Made by a program: the position numbers and the translations under genes. This document shows positions 2,785 through 29,065 of a stretch of 64,000 nt of DNA, in pieces. The notes under the pieces were generated by a model. The model saw nothing but the letters and a program-made list of their open reading frames with translations, was not told the DNA's origin and searched no databases. This stretch comes from Parasedimentitalea marina (GTDB taxonomy: Bacteria; Pseudomonadota; Alphaproteobacteria; Rhodobacterales; Rhodobacteraceae): NCBI RefSeq assembly GCF_004006175.1, contig NZ_CP033219.1, positions 620,001 to 684,000 on the forward strand. The letters run 5' to 3'. Positions within the stretch are counted from its first letter, which is position 1; every line of letters starts with the position of its first letter.

Positions 2785-3750
2785 TTAGGCGGTCCAGGTT
2801 GCGCCAGCGGGATCATCTGTCGAGGTGATCCGGTACAGGCTCGATTCCCCGGTCATCGACGGCGCTAGGGCATAAGATTCACCGGGATTGATCAAGCAGG
2901 TGTCGCCGGGGTTGATGACGCTTTCACCACCGTTCCAACGCAGTTTCCAATGGCCGCGCATCGGCATCAGCACAGTGTGTTGATCCGAGGTGATCATTTC
3001 ATCCGCGATAGAGCCACGGGTCAGGAAATCGATCTCGAAACCGGGGCGGTCTTTGAGCAGGGCGTCGGGGCCGATTACCTTGGCGGGTTTCTTGCCTGCC
3101 AGCGCCATCAAATCCCAATACCGGGCGACATATCCGGGAATGACATCTTCAGCAGGGACCTCGGGAATGTCTTTCAGTTGCTCTTCGGTCAACAGGGGCA
3201 TCGGGTTGACGTTGTGGGGCAGGGTGTCGCCCTTTTTGCTATCGTAGAGTACGCCATTTTCGCCAAGGATCAGCCCATGTGCCTGCGCATCTTCGATCAC
3301 TTGGGGGGCCCAGGTTACGCCGCCGCCAGCATCATCGCCGCCCAGAACAGCCATGATCATACCGTAGTCGGTGCCGATGTTCTCAAACCCGCGGAAGATG
3401 CCGGTTGGGATGTTGAAGATATCACCTTCTTCGGCAACGAACTCGCCAGCGGTGCCATAACGGCCCCAGAAAAACCGCCAACGGCCCTTGAGCACAAAGA
3501 ACACCTCGGCGGTGGTGTGCGTGTGCAGGCTGTTGCGGCATTTTGGGGGCTGGCCAGCAGCGCCGATGTTGAAGCCGACCTTGTCGGACAGGTGCACGTG
3601 CTGGTCTGGGCTCTCAGAAACGCCGCCACCGATGATGGTGAAGTTTTCCTTTTGATCGCTGCCCGGTGTATGGGCATCGATAAAGGCGGTTTTGCAGGGC
3701 TGAAGGTCACCGTAACGAACGATGCGGTCGGTGATGGATGATGCTGACAT
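2785..3750 (-). CDS. Bicupin-domain protein
   Basis: The 321-residue product has two cupin barrels. The first contains the metal-binding pattern SLHTHTTAEVFFVLKG (about residues 74-89) with HxH and Glu, and the matching second motif around GDIFNIPTG. The second barrel (about 240-310) has VLMPMRGHWKLRW and NPGDTCLINPGE but lacks the full His set, so it is probably structural. Family members are gentisate-type dioxygenases, isomerases or sugar-binding proteins. It is the last member of the leftward SnoaL/LacI catabolic operon, 192 bp after the preceding gene, with a small hairpin in that gap. The substrate is unknown. Confidence 0.75.
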   Translation of the reverse strand: MSASSITDRIVRYGDLQPCKTAFIDAHTPGSDQKENFTIIGGGVSESPDQHVHLSDKVGFNIGAAGQPPKCRNSLHTHTTAEVFFVLKGRWRFFWGRYGTAGEFVAEEGDIFNIPTGIFRGFENIGTDYGMIMAVLGGDDAGGGVTWAPQVIEDAQAHGLILGENGVLYDSKKGDTLPHNVNPMPLLTEEQLKDIPEVPAEDVIPGYVARYWDLMALAGKKPAKVIGPDALLKDRPGFEIDFLTRGSIADEMITSDQHTVLMPMRGHWKLRWNGGESVINPGDTCLINPGESYALAPSMTGESSLYRITSTDDPAGATWTA

Positions 3751-23310: not shown

Positions 23311-24723
23311 CTACCGAACACCCCGAGGGCGCCGAATGAAGCGGGGCATTTGACCTGCCATGATGCAACCGTATGGGTCGATCCAGTCCTCAACTTCGGC
23401 CAAGCCGTAGCTCTCGATTTGCGCGACCACGGCCTGCGCTGGTTTATAGCTGGACGGCAGCTCTGATGCATCCACCTGGCCGCTGTAAAACCGTACATCA
23501 AGCCCCTTTGTTTCTGCGATCAACGCTTCGTCCGCAGTGGTCGTTCCAAGCCTGCGCATATGTTCGGTGCGTGACCAGTTACGCCCTGCACCATGAGGGC
23601 TGAATCCCAAGGCATGTGGCGCATCTGTCCCGCGCACAATCAGGATCGGCTCCGCCATGTTAAGCGGGATGATCGTGCGGCCCGCCGCGTCCGCATCTGA
23701 TGCGAAATCGCTCCAAGCGGGTGTCGCGCCTTTGCCATGCAGATAGGTCTCCCCGCGACGAAACACAAAGTTATGCTCATTCCAGAAGCGCTCACCGGAG
23801 CTGGCTCCTGCGGCCTCCATCGTCGCCTGGTGAATGGAATTGTGGTTGGTCTTGGTCCACTTTCGGATCAACTGCAAGGCCTGCCAATAGGCGCGCCCGT
23901 CCTCGCTGTCAGCTGGAATCCATGCATTCTGCTTGAGCGTTTTTCGCGAATGAAGTCGACGATATTTTTCGGCAACCTCCATCCCGGCCTTGTAAAGCTT
24001 TGCACCTGGGCCACGTGATCCGTGATGCGTGACAAGCATCGTTTTCCCCGTGCGCCGGGATGTGCCCACGAACAGGAAATGGTTTCCGTCGCCCTGCGTG
24101 CCCATATGCTCCTGTACTGCGCGGATGGTTTTGGCATTGTTCAAAAACGGGTTGGCACGCATTGCATCAAGCAAGTCCAGTGACACCGTAAAACGTTGGC
24201 CTTGTTTACGCCCTCCTGGCCCGAAATGCGTGACCTTTTGGGCCGCATCAAGAATGGTTTTCGGGTCAGTATCGCCAAGATCGGTGAGCATAAGTGAACA
24301 ACAAATATCCGCCGAATGCATGCCGGGATGAATGGCATTATGCGCAGCGACGACACCGCCGACCGGGATCGTCCCAATGGGCCCTGCCGGGCAGGCATCG
24401 GGCATGATGGCACCGCCGATAACAGTGGGCGTACGCATCACAGCGCGCATAGTTTCGCGTACCTTTTCAAGGTTAGCCACTTCGTCGTCATCGGCAGGCG
24501 TCAGATTTTCATGGAACCCAATTGCGCCCTCTTCATGCAGTTCAATCTGTGGTGGCCGCACTGGAATTTCGGACGCCAACTCAGCACGGATCGCGCTCAT
24601 GTCGTGCCCCGCTACGTGCAGCTCGTTTGCGCGGTTCAACAGCGCTGGAAATTGAGCCCCTGGGGTGTGCCCCCACTGTTTCAATTCTCTACCTGTAATC
24701 GGTTTGATTGCGAGGTCTTCCAT
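23311..24723 (-). CDS. rtcB: RNA-splicing ligase RtcB
   Basis: 470-residue RtcB-family ligase that joins 2',3'-cyclic-phosphate or 3'-phosphate RNA ends to 5'-OH ends using GTP and Mn2+. Visible active-site elements are D139 with C141/C142 (HSADICCSL), GDGNHF (211-216), HHGSRG (233-238), EHN (316-318), and the guanylylated His in HGAGRNWSR (H377). The family's usual C-terminal Gly is followed here by a PRFIRRPRGVR extension. No rtcA or archease gene is adjacent. Ribosome site AAAGGA. It is divergent from its presumed activator rtcR, 290 bp away, and preceded by a structured leader. Confidence 0.95.
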   Translation of the reverse strand: MEDLAIKPITGRELKQWGHTPGAQFPALLNRANELHVAGHDMSAIRAELASEIPVRPPQIELHEEGAIGFHENLTPADDDEVANLEKVRETMRAVMRTPTVIGGAIMPDACPAGPIGTIPVGGVVAAHNAIHPGMHSADICCSLMLTDLGDTDPKTILDAAQKVTHFGPGGRKQGQRFTVSLDLLDAMRANPFLNNAKTIRAVQEHMGTQGDGNHFLFVGTSRRTGKTMLVTHHGSRGPGAKLYKAGMEVAEKYRRLHSRKTLKQNAWIPADSEDGRAYWQALQLIRKWTKTNHNSIHQATMEAAGASSGERFWNEHNFVFRRGETYLHGKGATPAWSDFASDADAAGRTIIPLNMAEPILIVRGTDAPHALGFSPHGAGRNWSRTEHMRRLGTTTADEALIAETKGLDVRFYSGQVDASELPSSYKPAQAVVAQIESYGLAEVEDWIDPYGCIMAGQMPRFIRRPRGVR

Positions 24724-24766
24724 TTAATTTCCTTTGGTCAATAGTCCCACGAAGAGTGACAATATG

Positions 24767-24880
24767 TGGTGGCGAGACGGCGGAGGTTTGAACACCACAT
24801 TGCCGTCTCGCCGTTTCTCCGGACGCGTATTCGTCCGTTTCCTTCGCTTTATCAGTGCGATGAGACAGGTTTAGCGAAGG
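24767..24880 (-). ncRNA. Candidate structured RNA/leader upstream of rtcB (three hairpins, tRNA-like end)
   Basis: Read on the minus strand, three stem-loops follow one another. CCTTCGCT/AGCGAAGG (24880-24873 with 24848-24841) is an 8-bp stem; CGGACG/CGTCCG (24837-24832 with 24825-24820) is 6 bp; GGCGAGACGGC/GCCGTCTCGCC (24812-24802 with 24781-24771) is an 11-bp perfect stem. The last loop contains GTTCAAACC, resembling a T-arm loop, and the stem is followed at once by ACCA, like a discriminator base plus CCA. Some rtc operons are known to carry Y RNA/tRNA-like RNAs (YrlA in Salmonella). Whether this is a separate RNA or an mRNA leader is not known. Confidence 0.5.
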
Positions 24881-24970
24881 TTTCTCTGCCGCTCAAAATT
24901 TTCGAAAAATCCACCAAGTGATTGATAACCAATTACTTATCTGGGCGTTGCATAAAGATTGAAGGTAAAA

Positions 24971-24990
24971 TACGATACAAAAATATCGTA
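24971..24990. promoter_or_regulatory. Perfect inverted repeat upstream of rtcR
   Basis: TACGATA (24971-24977) and TATCGTA (24984-24990) are perfect 7-bp arms around a 6-base spacer in an A/T-rich stretch, 24 bp before the rtcR start. This could be an enhancer site for RtcR acting on the divergent rtcB promoter, or an rtcR operator (inference). Confidence 0.5.
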
Positions 24991-25013: not shown

Positions 25014-26576
25014 ATGAGAAATGTTGTTCTCGGCTTCCTCGGTACCCAGCTCGACAGTGGAAAACGTCGCGGCTGGAAACCCACAGTCAGTCTTTGCCAA
25101 GAAGACGGGTTCGAGGTGGATCGATATGAATTGATCTTTGACTCCAAATTTTCGCGCCTCGCCCACAATGTCAAAGCAGATATTGAAGCCGTTTCCCCTG
25201 AAACAGAAGTTGTCCTAAACCGAATGGATATGGACGATCCGTGGGATCTTGGTGAAACCTACGCCAAGCTTTTTGACTTTGCCAAAGACTATGGCTTCGA
25301 TGAAGACCGCGAACGGTATCATATCCACCTCACCACAGGGACGCACATCGGACAAATCTGTTGGTTTCTACTTTCAGAATCGCGTCACATCCCAGCTGCC
25401 TTGATCCAGACCGGCCCTCCGCGCGACAAAGGCGGACGTGGCACGTTTGATTTAATTGACTTGGATCTGCGCCAGTTCGACGCCCTGCAGCAGCGGTTTG
25501 ATCAACAGTCGCGTGAATACGGTGAGATTTTGAAAGGCGGGATCGAAACCAAAAATGAAACCTACAACCAAATTATCGACCAAATCGAACAGGTCTCCAG
25601 CGTATCTGATGAACCCATTTTACTTCAGGGGGAAACCGGCACCGGAAAAACCGAGCTCGCGCAGCGGATTTACGAACTGAAGCTCCAGCGCCATCGTATC
25701 AAAGGTCGACTTGTTCACGTGAACTGCGCGACGCTTATCGGCGGCACCGCGACGGCAACCCTTTTTGGGCAACGGCGCAGTTTTACGGGTCAGGCAGGAA
25801 CCGAACGGACGGGCCTTCTACGCGAGGCCGACGGCGGTGTGCTGTTCCTTGATGAAATCGACATGTTGGGCCTAGAAGAACAGGCGTTGCTGCTCCATGC
25901 GATAGAAACAGGGCGCTATTATCCGCTTGGATCAGATAGTGAGATTACAAGCCGTTTTCATATCATCGCTGGGGCCTCGAGTAATCTTACCGAGCGTGTG
26001 GCGGCGGGTGAATTTCGTTTGGATCTTTTGGTGCGTCTGAATTTCTGGTCTTTTCAGTTGCCTCCACTGCGGGCACGCCGGGAAGACATCCAAGACAACC
26101 TACGGTACGAACTACGACGTGCTGAAAAGAGACTTGGCATTCGGGTCGGATTTAATGCCGATGCGGCAGAGGCCTGGTTGCGGTTTGCCCGCGCTCCCAG
26201 CACGTTGTGGCCAGGTAATTTTCGCGACTTTGGCGGCGCTGTCCTGCGTTTGTGTACCCTCGCTCCACGAGGGCGTATCACGCGCGCGCAAGTCCAAGAG
26301 GAAATAGATCGGCTACTGCACCGCTGGCAATCGTCGAACACGGACCCCAATGCTCAATTGATCGCGCAGTACGTAACCAAGCCTTTGGATTCATTTGATA
26401 TCCCGCAGCTGGCGCAGGTCATTCGAACATGCAAAACCTCCTCTTCCATAAGTGAGGCCGGAAGGACTTTGTTTGCCGTATCTCGGGAAGAGCGAGCAAG
26501 CCGGAATGACGCAGATCGCCTTCGCAAGTATTTGGCGAAGTTCGATTTGAAGTGGACGGATTTTTCCAGTTCCTAA
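25014..26576 (+). CDS. rtcR: RNA repair transcriptional activator RtcR
   Basis: 520 residues. The N-terminal CARF-like domain (1-180) has the ligand-loop motif HLTTGTH (105-111). The sigma-54 AAA+ domain has Walker A GETGTGKT (206-213), a GAFTGA-equivalent loop RRSFTGQ (254-260) and Walker B VLFLDEID (276-283). A C-terminal DNA-binding region follows (SSSISEAGRTLFAVS). In characterised systems the CARF domain senses RNA ends bearing 2',3'-cyclic phosphate and RtcR then drives rtcBA from a sigma-54 promoter. The GAFTGA loop is altered (R-S-F-T-G-Q), as in other RtcR proteins I recall only loosely. Confidence 0.95.
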   Translation: MRNVVLGFLGTQLDSGKRRGWKPTVSLCQEDGFEVDRYELIFDSKFSRLAHNVKADIEAVSPETEVVLNRMDMDDPWDLGETYAKLFDFAKDYGFDEDRERYHIHLTTGTHIGQICWFLLSESRHIPAALIQTGPPRDKGGRGTFDLIDLDLRQFDALQQRFDQQSREYGEILKGGIETKNETYNQIIDQIEQVSSVSDEPILLQGETGTGKTELAQRIYELKLQRHRIKGRLVHVNCATLIGGTATATLFGQRRSFTGQAGTERTGLLREADGGVLFLDEIDMLGLEEQALLLHAIETGRYYPLGSDSEITSRFHIIAGASSNLTERVAAGEFRLDLLVRLNFWSFQLPPLRARREDIQDNLRYELRRAEKRLGIRVGFNADAAEAWLRFARAPSTLWPGNFRDFGGAVLRLCTLAPRGRITRAQVQEEIDRLLHRWQSSNTDPNAQLIAQYVTKPLDSFDIPQLAQVIRTCKTSSSISEAGRTLFAVSREERASRNDADRLRKYLAKFDLKWTDFSSS

Positions 26577-27925: not shown

Positions 27926-28039
27926 GGTGCTTCGCCAGTTGTCGCCAAGTCTTTTGGGTCCCATCCAACAGGCGTATGGCTGCAATTAGAAACGTCTGGA
28001 TGAGCTGTTTCCAACAGCTTGAAAATGGTCTGAAACTTG

Positions 28040-29065
28040 ATGGAAAATTACATTTCCAAGCACATAATTCGAGTGGCGTTCTTAGTATTGAGTGTTCTGG
28101 TCACCCTTGGCGGATGTTCGGAGCCGATCAAGAAATACCACAGCAAAAGACTGTTCTTGGCCCCAGATGCCGAGAGCAGTAATGCCGGTCTCCGATTGTT
28201 TTGGTCGGGCGCCGCATCCGTTGTTATTGACGACGGAACACACTCGGTTCTGATTGATCCCTTTGTTTCGCGCCAGGAAAACAGTGTCTTTGATATTGTA
28301 TTCCGGCGTGACGCTGTTGTTGCAGAGTGTCGCATCAATGAAAGAGTCAAACGGCCTGAAATCGCGCGAGCCAAGACAATACTTGTTGGTCATTCGCATT
28401 ACGACCACAGCCTTGATGTCGCTGAATTTGCCAGGCTTACAAAGGCGCAAGTCTTCGGATCACTCAGCACACAGCGTATTCTAAGGGCCCATGATCATAC
28501 GACGGCCACCAGAGTAACCGCCAACGATGTGCTGGAAAAAGACGACGTCGATGGCCGTTTCAAAATCACCGTTTTTGCCAGCAAGCACGGCAACCCCCCA
28601 GTCTGCCTAGAGCCTTTTGGTTGTCTCAATCCGCTTGCAGATACGGTGCCAGACTCATTTGAACTGCCTGCCGCTGTGACTGAATACGGCGAGGGCGAAG
28701 TCTATGCGTTTTTTGTTGAGCATAAGTTTGGCAATGTTCTTCATGTCGGAAGTGCCGGCGTGATGTCCGGGACGCTGGACCACCTCAAAGGCCAAGTTGA
28801 TGTCGTGTTATTGTCTCTGGTGGGCCGTGGCCCTACCGAGGCGTTTCTTAAAAACATCGTCGCAGCCGTCAATCCGGACTACGTCATCCCCATACATTTC
28901 GACAACCTCTTCCGGTCGCTAGACGCAGAAACACGCGTTGCCAAAATCGCAAAGCTTAGCGAGTTTTTTGAAGTGATGGAGCGTGATTACCCCAATGTAA
29001 ACACAGGGGTAATTCCGTTTGATGAGCCTTGGAACCTGCCACATCGTGGGGCCAGTGACGGCTGA
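28040..29065 (+). CDS. MBL-fold metallo-hydrolase lipoprotein
   Basis: About 341 residues. It has a signal peptide with lipobox LGGC (Cys26), so it is probably anchored to a membrane facing the periplasm. The beta-lactamase-fold metal motif HSHYDH is at 118-123. Later HVGSAGVMSG and IPIHFDNL supply the remaining ligand region. The family resembles UlaG/MBL proteins with unknown lipid or phosphoester substrates. ATG at 28040 is used; a TTG codon just before it extends the frame by one. It follows the DUF900 hydrolase by 114 bp and is convergent with the SoxT-like gene. Confidence 0.8.
   Translation: MENYISKHIIRVAFLVLSVLVTLGGCSEPIKKYHSKRLFLAPDAESSNAGLRLFWSGAASVVIDDGTHSVLIDPFVSRQENSVFDIVFRRDAVVAECRINERVKRPEIARAKTILVGHSHYDHSLDVAEFARLTKAQVFGSLSTQRILRAHDHTTATRVTANDVLEKDDVDGRFKITVFASKHGNPPVCLEPFGCLNPLADTVPDSFELPAAVTEYGEGEVYAFFVEHKFGNVLHVGSAGVMSGTLDHLKGQVDVVLLSLVGRGPTEAFLKNIVAAVNPDYVIPIHFDNLFRSLDAETRVAKIAKLSEFFEVMERDYPNVNTGVIPFDEPWNLPHRGASDG

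Follow-up and report, generated by a model that had tools for sequence, protein, structure and literature searches.

The rtcB leader and the region upstream of it

The window, by which we mean the entire 64,000-nucleotide stretch of the Parasedimentitalea marina contig analyzed here, carries the RNA ligase gene rtcB divergent from rtcR, and the leader that precedes rtcB is the subject of this analysis (Table 1). The leader sequence occurs once in its own genome. Positions 24724–24900 fold with a predicted energy of −60.6 kcal/mol (z-score −3.95), which none of 200 shuffled sequences equaled. An RtcB of this type (E up to 1e-60) is encoded in 5 of 147 relatives, own genome included; the other seven genomes from this genus lack it, and hence the rtc operon looks accessory.

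Table 1. Genes and sequence elements at the rtcR–rtcB locus, in window positions.
Feature	Positions	Strand	Description
rtcB	23311–24723	−	RNA ligase, 470 aa; ATG at 24723; Pfam RtcB, 125.5 bits
Shine-Dalgarno AAAGGA	24730–24735	−	6 nt ahead of the rtcB ATG
hp4	24737–24760	−	GTCA..TGAC plus inner pairs; a weak hairpin in the window; abuts the Shine-Dalgarno on its 5′ side
hp3	24771–24812	−	11 bp, GC-rich, GGCGAGACGGC/GCCGTCTCGCC; 24812–24802 with 24781–24771; 20-nt loop
hp2	24820–24837	−	6 bp, CGGACG/CGTCCG; 24837–24832 with 24825–24820; loop AAUACG
hp1	24841–24880	−	8 bp, CCTTCGCT/AGCGAAGG; 24880–24873 with 24848–24841; window-specific
Promoter-like block (candidate)	24860–24877	−	window copy of ~YTGNCAAAACnnnnYYCA; conserved columns
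IHF-like site TATCAATCACTTG	24915–24927	−	conserved ATCAA..TTA columns
Palindrome TACGATA-N6-TATCGTA	24971–24990	−	within conserved columns of 67 aligned leaders
rtcR	25014–26576	+	520 aa, divergent from rtcB; NCBIfam NF038308, 652.7 bits (cut-off 650)

A sequence-only reading of this leader had described three perfect minus-strand stems of 8, 6, and 11 bp and proposed that they form one tRNA-like element. All three stems are present (hp1, hp2, and hp3), and comparison with relatives adds a further conserved hairpin, hp4, which that reading did not contain. The single element dissolves in the same comparison: hp2 and hp3 are conserved, while hp1 and the tRNA-like traits occur in the window only. 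In nine aligned relatives, 1–4 of the eight hp1 positions are pairable, most of these relatives having gaps there, which rules out hp1 as a conserved RNA stem; its 5′ arm overlaps the conserved promoter-like block. A pseudoknot between ATGTGGTG in the hp3 loop (24800–24793) and CACCACAT (24771–24764), both on the minus strand, was rejected by reasoning alone as unlikely with hp3 intact, and the eight-base complement was not seen by eye in relatives; this pairing could be an alternative that competes with hp3. No intrinsic terminator, defined as a GC-rich stem with a run of T after it, follows hp3 on the rtcB strand, the sole match lying on the plus strand at hp2.

Further upstream, the palindrome is likely the RtcR binding site (UAS), a role modeled on the arrangement of E. 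coli rtcBA as given in the accessible text of PMC9650030. The promoter-like block lines up with the −24 region of the canonical sigma-54 promoters found in four loci (L126, from a genome of another family, and L132–L134). A hand-weighted sigma-54 scan scored 12.5–13.5 in these four and 7.5–12.0 at scattered positions elsewhere, with 8.5–9.5 in L072–L074 and L079, and with 12.0 in L015 and L066 but at other places. The site at 24915–24927 resembles the IHF consensus. The window RtcR reads QRRSFTGQA in place of GAFTGA; among 63 stretches read at this place in RtcR proteins, some of them duplicates of each other, GAFTG was found only in Methylosinus, which has a canonical sigma-54 site. In the own genome, the RpoN profile PF04552 reached 20.7 bits, under its cut-off, and PF04963 gave no match; RpoN was likewise not found over the cut-off in nine of the ten other class A genomes (the class is defined below), and is present in that of the class A locus L012 and of the rsr-bearing locus L017. 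With GAFTGA missing from RtcR and rpoN not detected, the sigma-54 rule gives no means of placing the transcription start. The R. capsulatus NtrC that lacks GAFTGA is reported, in the available part of PMC10274813, to act through sigma-70, and judging by its sequence the window RtcR may work without sigma-54. The transcriptional part of the system thus also appears to differ from the textbook case, as suggested by the absence of GAFTGA and of a detected sigma-54 gene.

hp2 and hp3 pair with compensatory changes in related operons

A genome scan with RtcB returned at least 80 loci. Among the matches listed, rtcR lies divergent and upstream in 66 of 80, and the 14 loci with no rtcR visible were unusable for leader positions. 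Two layouts recur: either rsr (Ro60/TROVE) lies upstream of rtcB, as in 44 of the 80 loci among the matches listed, where rsr was recognized by its start sequence, or a short gap without rsr is found. All three rsr loci that were scanned encode the Ro60 vWA domain; the TROVE domain passes its cut-off in two of them and narrowly misses it in the third. The Y RNA YrlA (RF02553) was detected in 7 of 18 loci scanned, none of these seven belonging to class A; several loci also have tRNA genes. Class A comprises 11 leaders (the window, L007–L013, L045, L062, and G281/L087), has a gap of ~280 nt with a hairpin leader, and encodes RtcB proteins 75–83% identical to that of the window. In an RtcB tree built by a quick method from the matches listed, class A is one clade (SH-aLRT 99), with 70 further rows as its sister group (support 91, not starred); because of this sister position, class A may have lost rsr or may never have had it.

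L017, L025, L027, L030, L034, and similar loci carry Y RNAs and tRNAs in the interval from rsr to rtcB; by eye, several of these units resemble circularly permuted tRNAs, and in some the anticodon loop is shortened. In L083 (~3417–3500), an rsr-like N-terminus (MADKSAFAS..) appears by eye to run in frame into rtcB. L016 (2939–3481) and L060 (2928–3464) carry an RNA 2′-phosphotransferase gene (KptA/Tpt1, PF01885) directly upstream of rtcB.

Against this background, the tRNA-like features of the window do not extend to its relatives. A T-arm-like GTTCAAACC loop and a terminal ACCA had been noted, and both exist in the window; neither is conserved. The 20-nt hp3 loop with GTTCAAACC is found only there, giving a T-like loop in 1 of 11 class A leaders, and the other ten have loops of 6 nt, save for the 8 nt of L045, where the closing pair is mismatched. 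ACCA directly follows hp3 (24770–24767, minus strand) only in the window, with L009 carrying it two bases further on. ARAGORN found no tRNA in the rtcB leader, and neither did the cloverleaf model RF00005. Elsewhere in the window, ARAGORN called a tRNA-Asn (att) at 28195–28286 on the plus strand, inside an open reading frame at 28037–29065; this call is unconfirmed by Rfam and probably false. No Rfam family matched the leader at its gathering score and none credibly at E up to 5, the best relaxed score being 17.9 bits against a cut-off of 45.

The suggested kinship with Y RNA fared no better. RF02553 gave no match in the window at its gathering score or, with E relaxed to 5, in the leader; the own genome and all 18 short-leader genomes likewise had none over the cut-off, versus two of two positive controls. 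Matches of 29–31 bits, below the cut-off, were seen in 5 of the 18 and likewise below the cut-off in 7 of 14 control genomes. Like YrlA, the window leader is a structured RNA lying between rtcR and rtcB in an RtcR-linked RNA-repair operon; unlike YrlA, it is built of tandem hairpins rather than a closed stem with a tRNA-like module, and has no YrlA-model match, no conserved T-like loop, and no genomic Rsr. The observation that no TROVE/Rsr protein is nearby holds for the whole genome. The TROVE profile PF05731 is a weak test for these proteins (the rsr-bearing genome G358 scored only 22.7–26.4 bits), and therefore a matched Rsr query was used, which detected rsr in none of 24 short-leader genomes, own genome included, and in both of two controls. 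On the evidence of Rfam, ARAGORN, and the relatives, a tRNA-like or Y-like identity was rejected. Of the proposed new RNA class there survive a structured RNA in front of rtcB, compensatory changes in hp2 and hp3, the lack of an Rfam family, and a genome in which neither Rsr nor YrlA was detected; hp1 and the tRNA and Y RNA traits drop out.

To describe the conserved part, covariance model R1 was built on hp2, hp3, and hp4 from seven aligned class A leaders, window excluded. L013 and L062 were kept out on account of an hp2 loop with one base fewer, and L028/L029 were also left out. R1 finds the window leader with 71.3 bits (E 3.6e-15) and recovers L013, L062, and, more weakly, L028/L029; several of its lesser matches (E 0.06 and worse) fall across rsr starts. 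Run with strict filters against 394 genomes of the family, R1 gave four strong matches, one per genome and all between rtcR and rtcB, the matches in 23 other family genomes having E 0.026 or worse. One of the four, G281, was a leader new to the set, and the G307 and G191 matches correspond to the L013 and L062 leaders.

Alignments support the pairing. In the seven-row alignment A5, 98.3% of cells are paired and the covariation score is 0.234, against 0.121 ± 0.021 for shuffled and 0.02–0.09 for slid alignments; two of its five measures are weak, namely further pair types (10 versus 10.3 shuffled; 410 of 500) and pairs changed on both sides (14 of 500). The 13-row alignment A6, which was fitted to the structure, gave 0.338 versus 0.144, with 95–100% of cells paired per helix. 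Because related rows can mimic covariation, stem-column changes were placed at random on the RtcB tree. For hp3 (11 rows), neither the 99.2% paired cells nor the 19 double-change cells were equaled in 2000 placements, and the number of pairs with a double change was equaled in 1 of 2000. For hp2 in 17 rsr-less rows, the 22 double-change cells were equaled in 0, the paired cells in 2, and the pairs in 7 of 2000; in class A alone, hp2 does not rise above this null (double-change cells 137, paired cells 359, and pairs 69 of 2000). Compensatory changes exceed the tree-based null in both stems, with the exception of hp2 taken within class A. Nearly every class A relative is able to form both stems.

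The GTCA/TGAC arms of hp4 are paired in all 11 rows having letters there, with zero double changes in the aligned leaders, and hp4 therefore counts as sequence conservation only. Among the non-Watson-Crick cells, 11 are G-U/U-G and 2 are C-A (one-sided binomial ~0.01, calculated by hand), which fits an RNA on the rtcB-sense strand; an RNA processed from that transcript would fit as well. The window leader is a conserved, covarying structure upstream of one gene and on its sense strand, which is the pattern expected of a cis-acting 5′ leader. An exception to its position next to rtcB is found in L028 and L029, which have another gene in between: a protein of 327–332 aa is encoded there between the hairpin leader and rtcB (L028 2492–3487, L029 2508–3488), with no Pfam match at E 0.01.

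A hairpin of the same type at rsr start codons

The arms of hp2 vary, and its loop, AAUNCG, is nearly fixed but for the N in most rows; we take this loop to resemble the UNCG tetraloop. Of the 69 leaders with rtcR in view among the matches listed, 53 have a stem of 5 bp or more capped by an (A/G)AUNCG loop, and 51 of these 53 hairpins lie 178–191 nt from the rtcR start. L013 and L062 were scored as misses because their hp2 loop has 5 nt.

In rsr operons, the start codons themselves, ATGGCRAACAAATCCGTGTTTGC, form an hp2-type hairpin that usually covers codons 2–8. The strict motif is present in 37 of 43 rsr leaders and missing in 6 of 43, among the matches listed; the hairpin is absent in one Rhizobium and one Shinella record. 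The Methylosinus rsr start shows a variant with a compensated pair, GCGAGCA/TGTTCGC. We examined codon usage in 44 rsr genes, reduced to 32 at 88% identity: synonymous diversity at codons 2–9 is 0.25 of expectation, versus a gene mean of 0.80, and is the second lowest of 237 windows of codons, the lowest of which overlaps it. Codon 2 is only GCG (15) or GCA (17), both pairable with the opposite U. This constraint is support, not proof, since start codons may be constrained for other reasons.

The hairpin of the window resembles that of the rsr start in its equal distance from rtcR, its AAUCCG-type loop, and its perfect stem of 6–7 bp. It differs in that it lies outside any gene, has no ATG, has changed arms with pairing kept, and is followed by hp3 and hp4. 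Among the matches listed, 13 operons outside class A lack rsr; hp2 is kept in 6 of them (L028, L029, L019, L065, L070, and L046), and this label requires four changes on the RtcB tree. In the other 7 of 13 (L054, L075, L077, L078, L063, L039, and L083; again among the matches listed), hp2 is missing or degenerate, and so it is dispensable for an rtcB operon. Its arms have changed with the hairpin kept in class A, L028/L029, and L070; in L019, L065, and L046, hp2 is identical to the rsr start sequence and could, from this identity, be a recent remnant of it. In the papers we found, the rsr start-codon hairpin of alphaproteobacterial rtc operons carries no name.

We also considered an upstream open reading frame starting from an ATG in hp2 and rejected it: the window has ACG, and the lengths and frames of such reading frames vary by eye. 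In most class A leaders (e.g., L007), the hp2 ATG opens a short reading frame, and these differ in length and frame by eye; that of L010 ends after five codons, and the one in L045 runs in frame into rtcB.

Reading the leader as a probable cis-acting RNA

Taken together, these comparisons favor reading the leader as an RNA structure that is conserved, acts in cis, and lies in the 5′ untranslated region of the rtcB message, a reading to which we assign a probability of roughly 0.58. Its role would be to protect the rtcB message or to control its translation. Under such a model, RtcR would turn the operon on and the rtcB message would bear the hairpins near its start; hp2, with its fixed AAUNCG loop and changeable stem, could serve as a docking or nucleating element; hp2 together with hp3 would protect the message toward its 5′ end, and hp4 would keep the region before the Shine-Dalgarno defined and open. 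The net effect would be that the repair protein is made during RNA-cutting stress. Bacterial mRNAs such as ompA carry 5′-stabilizing stem-loops, and the window leader shares with that stabilizer the placement of stem-loops in the 5′ untranslated region before an open ribosome-binding site; it differs in comprising several hairpins with a conserved loop. We would further propose, tentatively and with more doubt than confidence, that the AAUNCG hairpin at the start of the operon's message is bound by one of the system's own proteins (RtcB, or Rsr in operons that have it), which would set how long the message lasts or how it is translated. The operon would then read repair demand twice, through RtcR and through the leader, and the hairpin would be kept in some rsr-less lineages because this control is kept.

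Control by RtcR has been described in Salmonella and E. coli, and the accessible text of both accounts (PMC7790460, PMC9650030) holds nothing relevant to a hairpin leader. To the extent of that text, control of bacterial RNA-repair operons is transcription driven by RtcR and started by damaged tRNA. We found no paper on such an rtcB leader in the open-access literature. A conserved leader RNA that is partly common with rsr start codons, and that also occurs in some lineages lacking rsr, suggests that control has a second layer, at the level of RNA; the rtcB leader offers a compact element for testing it.

Several other explanations were weighed against the cis-acting reading. It seems unlikely that processing of the leader releases a small RNA of its own, be it Y-like, a nuclease decoy, or a sensor substrate, in place of the Y RNAs of sister operons. 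Upstream of rtcB, sister operons do carry tRNA genes and YrlA (in 7 of the 18 loci scanned), the tRNA-like portion of YrlA has been suggested as a possible competitor for anticodon nucleases (in the available text of PMC7790460), and the CCCAUU loop of hp3 recurs by eye in arms of the Y-RNA-like units of other loci. Against this stand the YrlA searches of the window and of all 18 short-leader genomes, with nothing over the cut-off, together with the missing Rsr partner, the confinement of the T-like loop to 1 of 11 leaders, and the lack of a terminator-like site after hp3. Still less probable is that the hairpins are passive relics, left by deletion, of a lost rsr start and of neighboring Y RNA pieces. 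Such an origin would account for the position of hp2 at that of the rsr start hairpin, for the identical sequences in L019, L065, and L046, for the resemblance by eye of the hp3 region to rsr codons 10–16 or to a Y RNA arm, and for the 7 of 13 other rsr-less operons, among the matches listed, whose hairpin is absent or degenerate; it is at odds with compensatory changes above the tree null, with 95–100% paired cells per helix, and with persistence over 11 class A leaders whose RtcB proteins have diverged to 75–83% identity with that of the window.

The idea that the leader is self-cleaving or nuclease-cut and is rejoined by RtcB, as an autoregulatory switch, draws on the ability of RtcB to join cyclic-phosphate and 5′-OH ends (stated in the accessible part of PMC7790460); no Rfam ribozyme family matched in the leader, no motif for a cleavage site came to notice, and we regard this idea as barely credible. 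A palindromic DNA operator, recognized by a regulatory protein, in place of an RNA hairpin, is a somewhat better though very improbable account of hp2, which is a perfect inverted repeat near the promoter region, with RtcR-type and IHF-type sites upstream. The pattern of substitution runs the other way: the hp2 arms change together around a nearly fixed AAUNCG spacer, in contrast to the UAS, where the spacer is most variable and the arms have invariant positions. Because its loop is nearly fixed and its arms are changeable, hp2 fits an RNA hairpin with a recognized or structured loop better than a DNA operator; the wobble pairs fit a single RNA strand, and the nucleotide constraint reappears inside the rsr codons.
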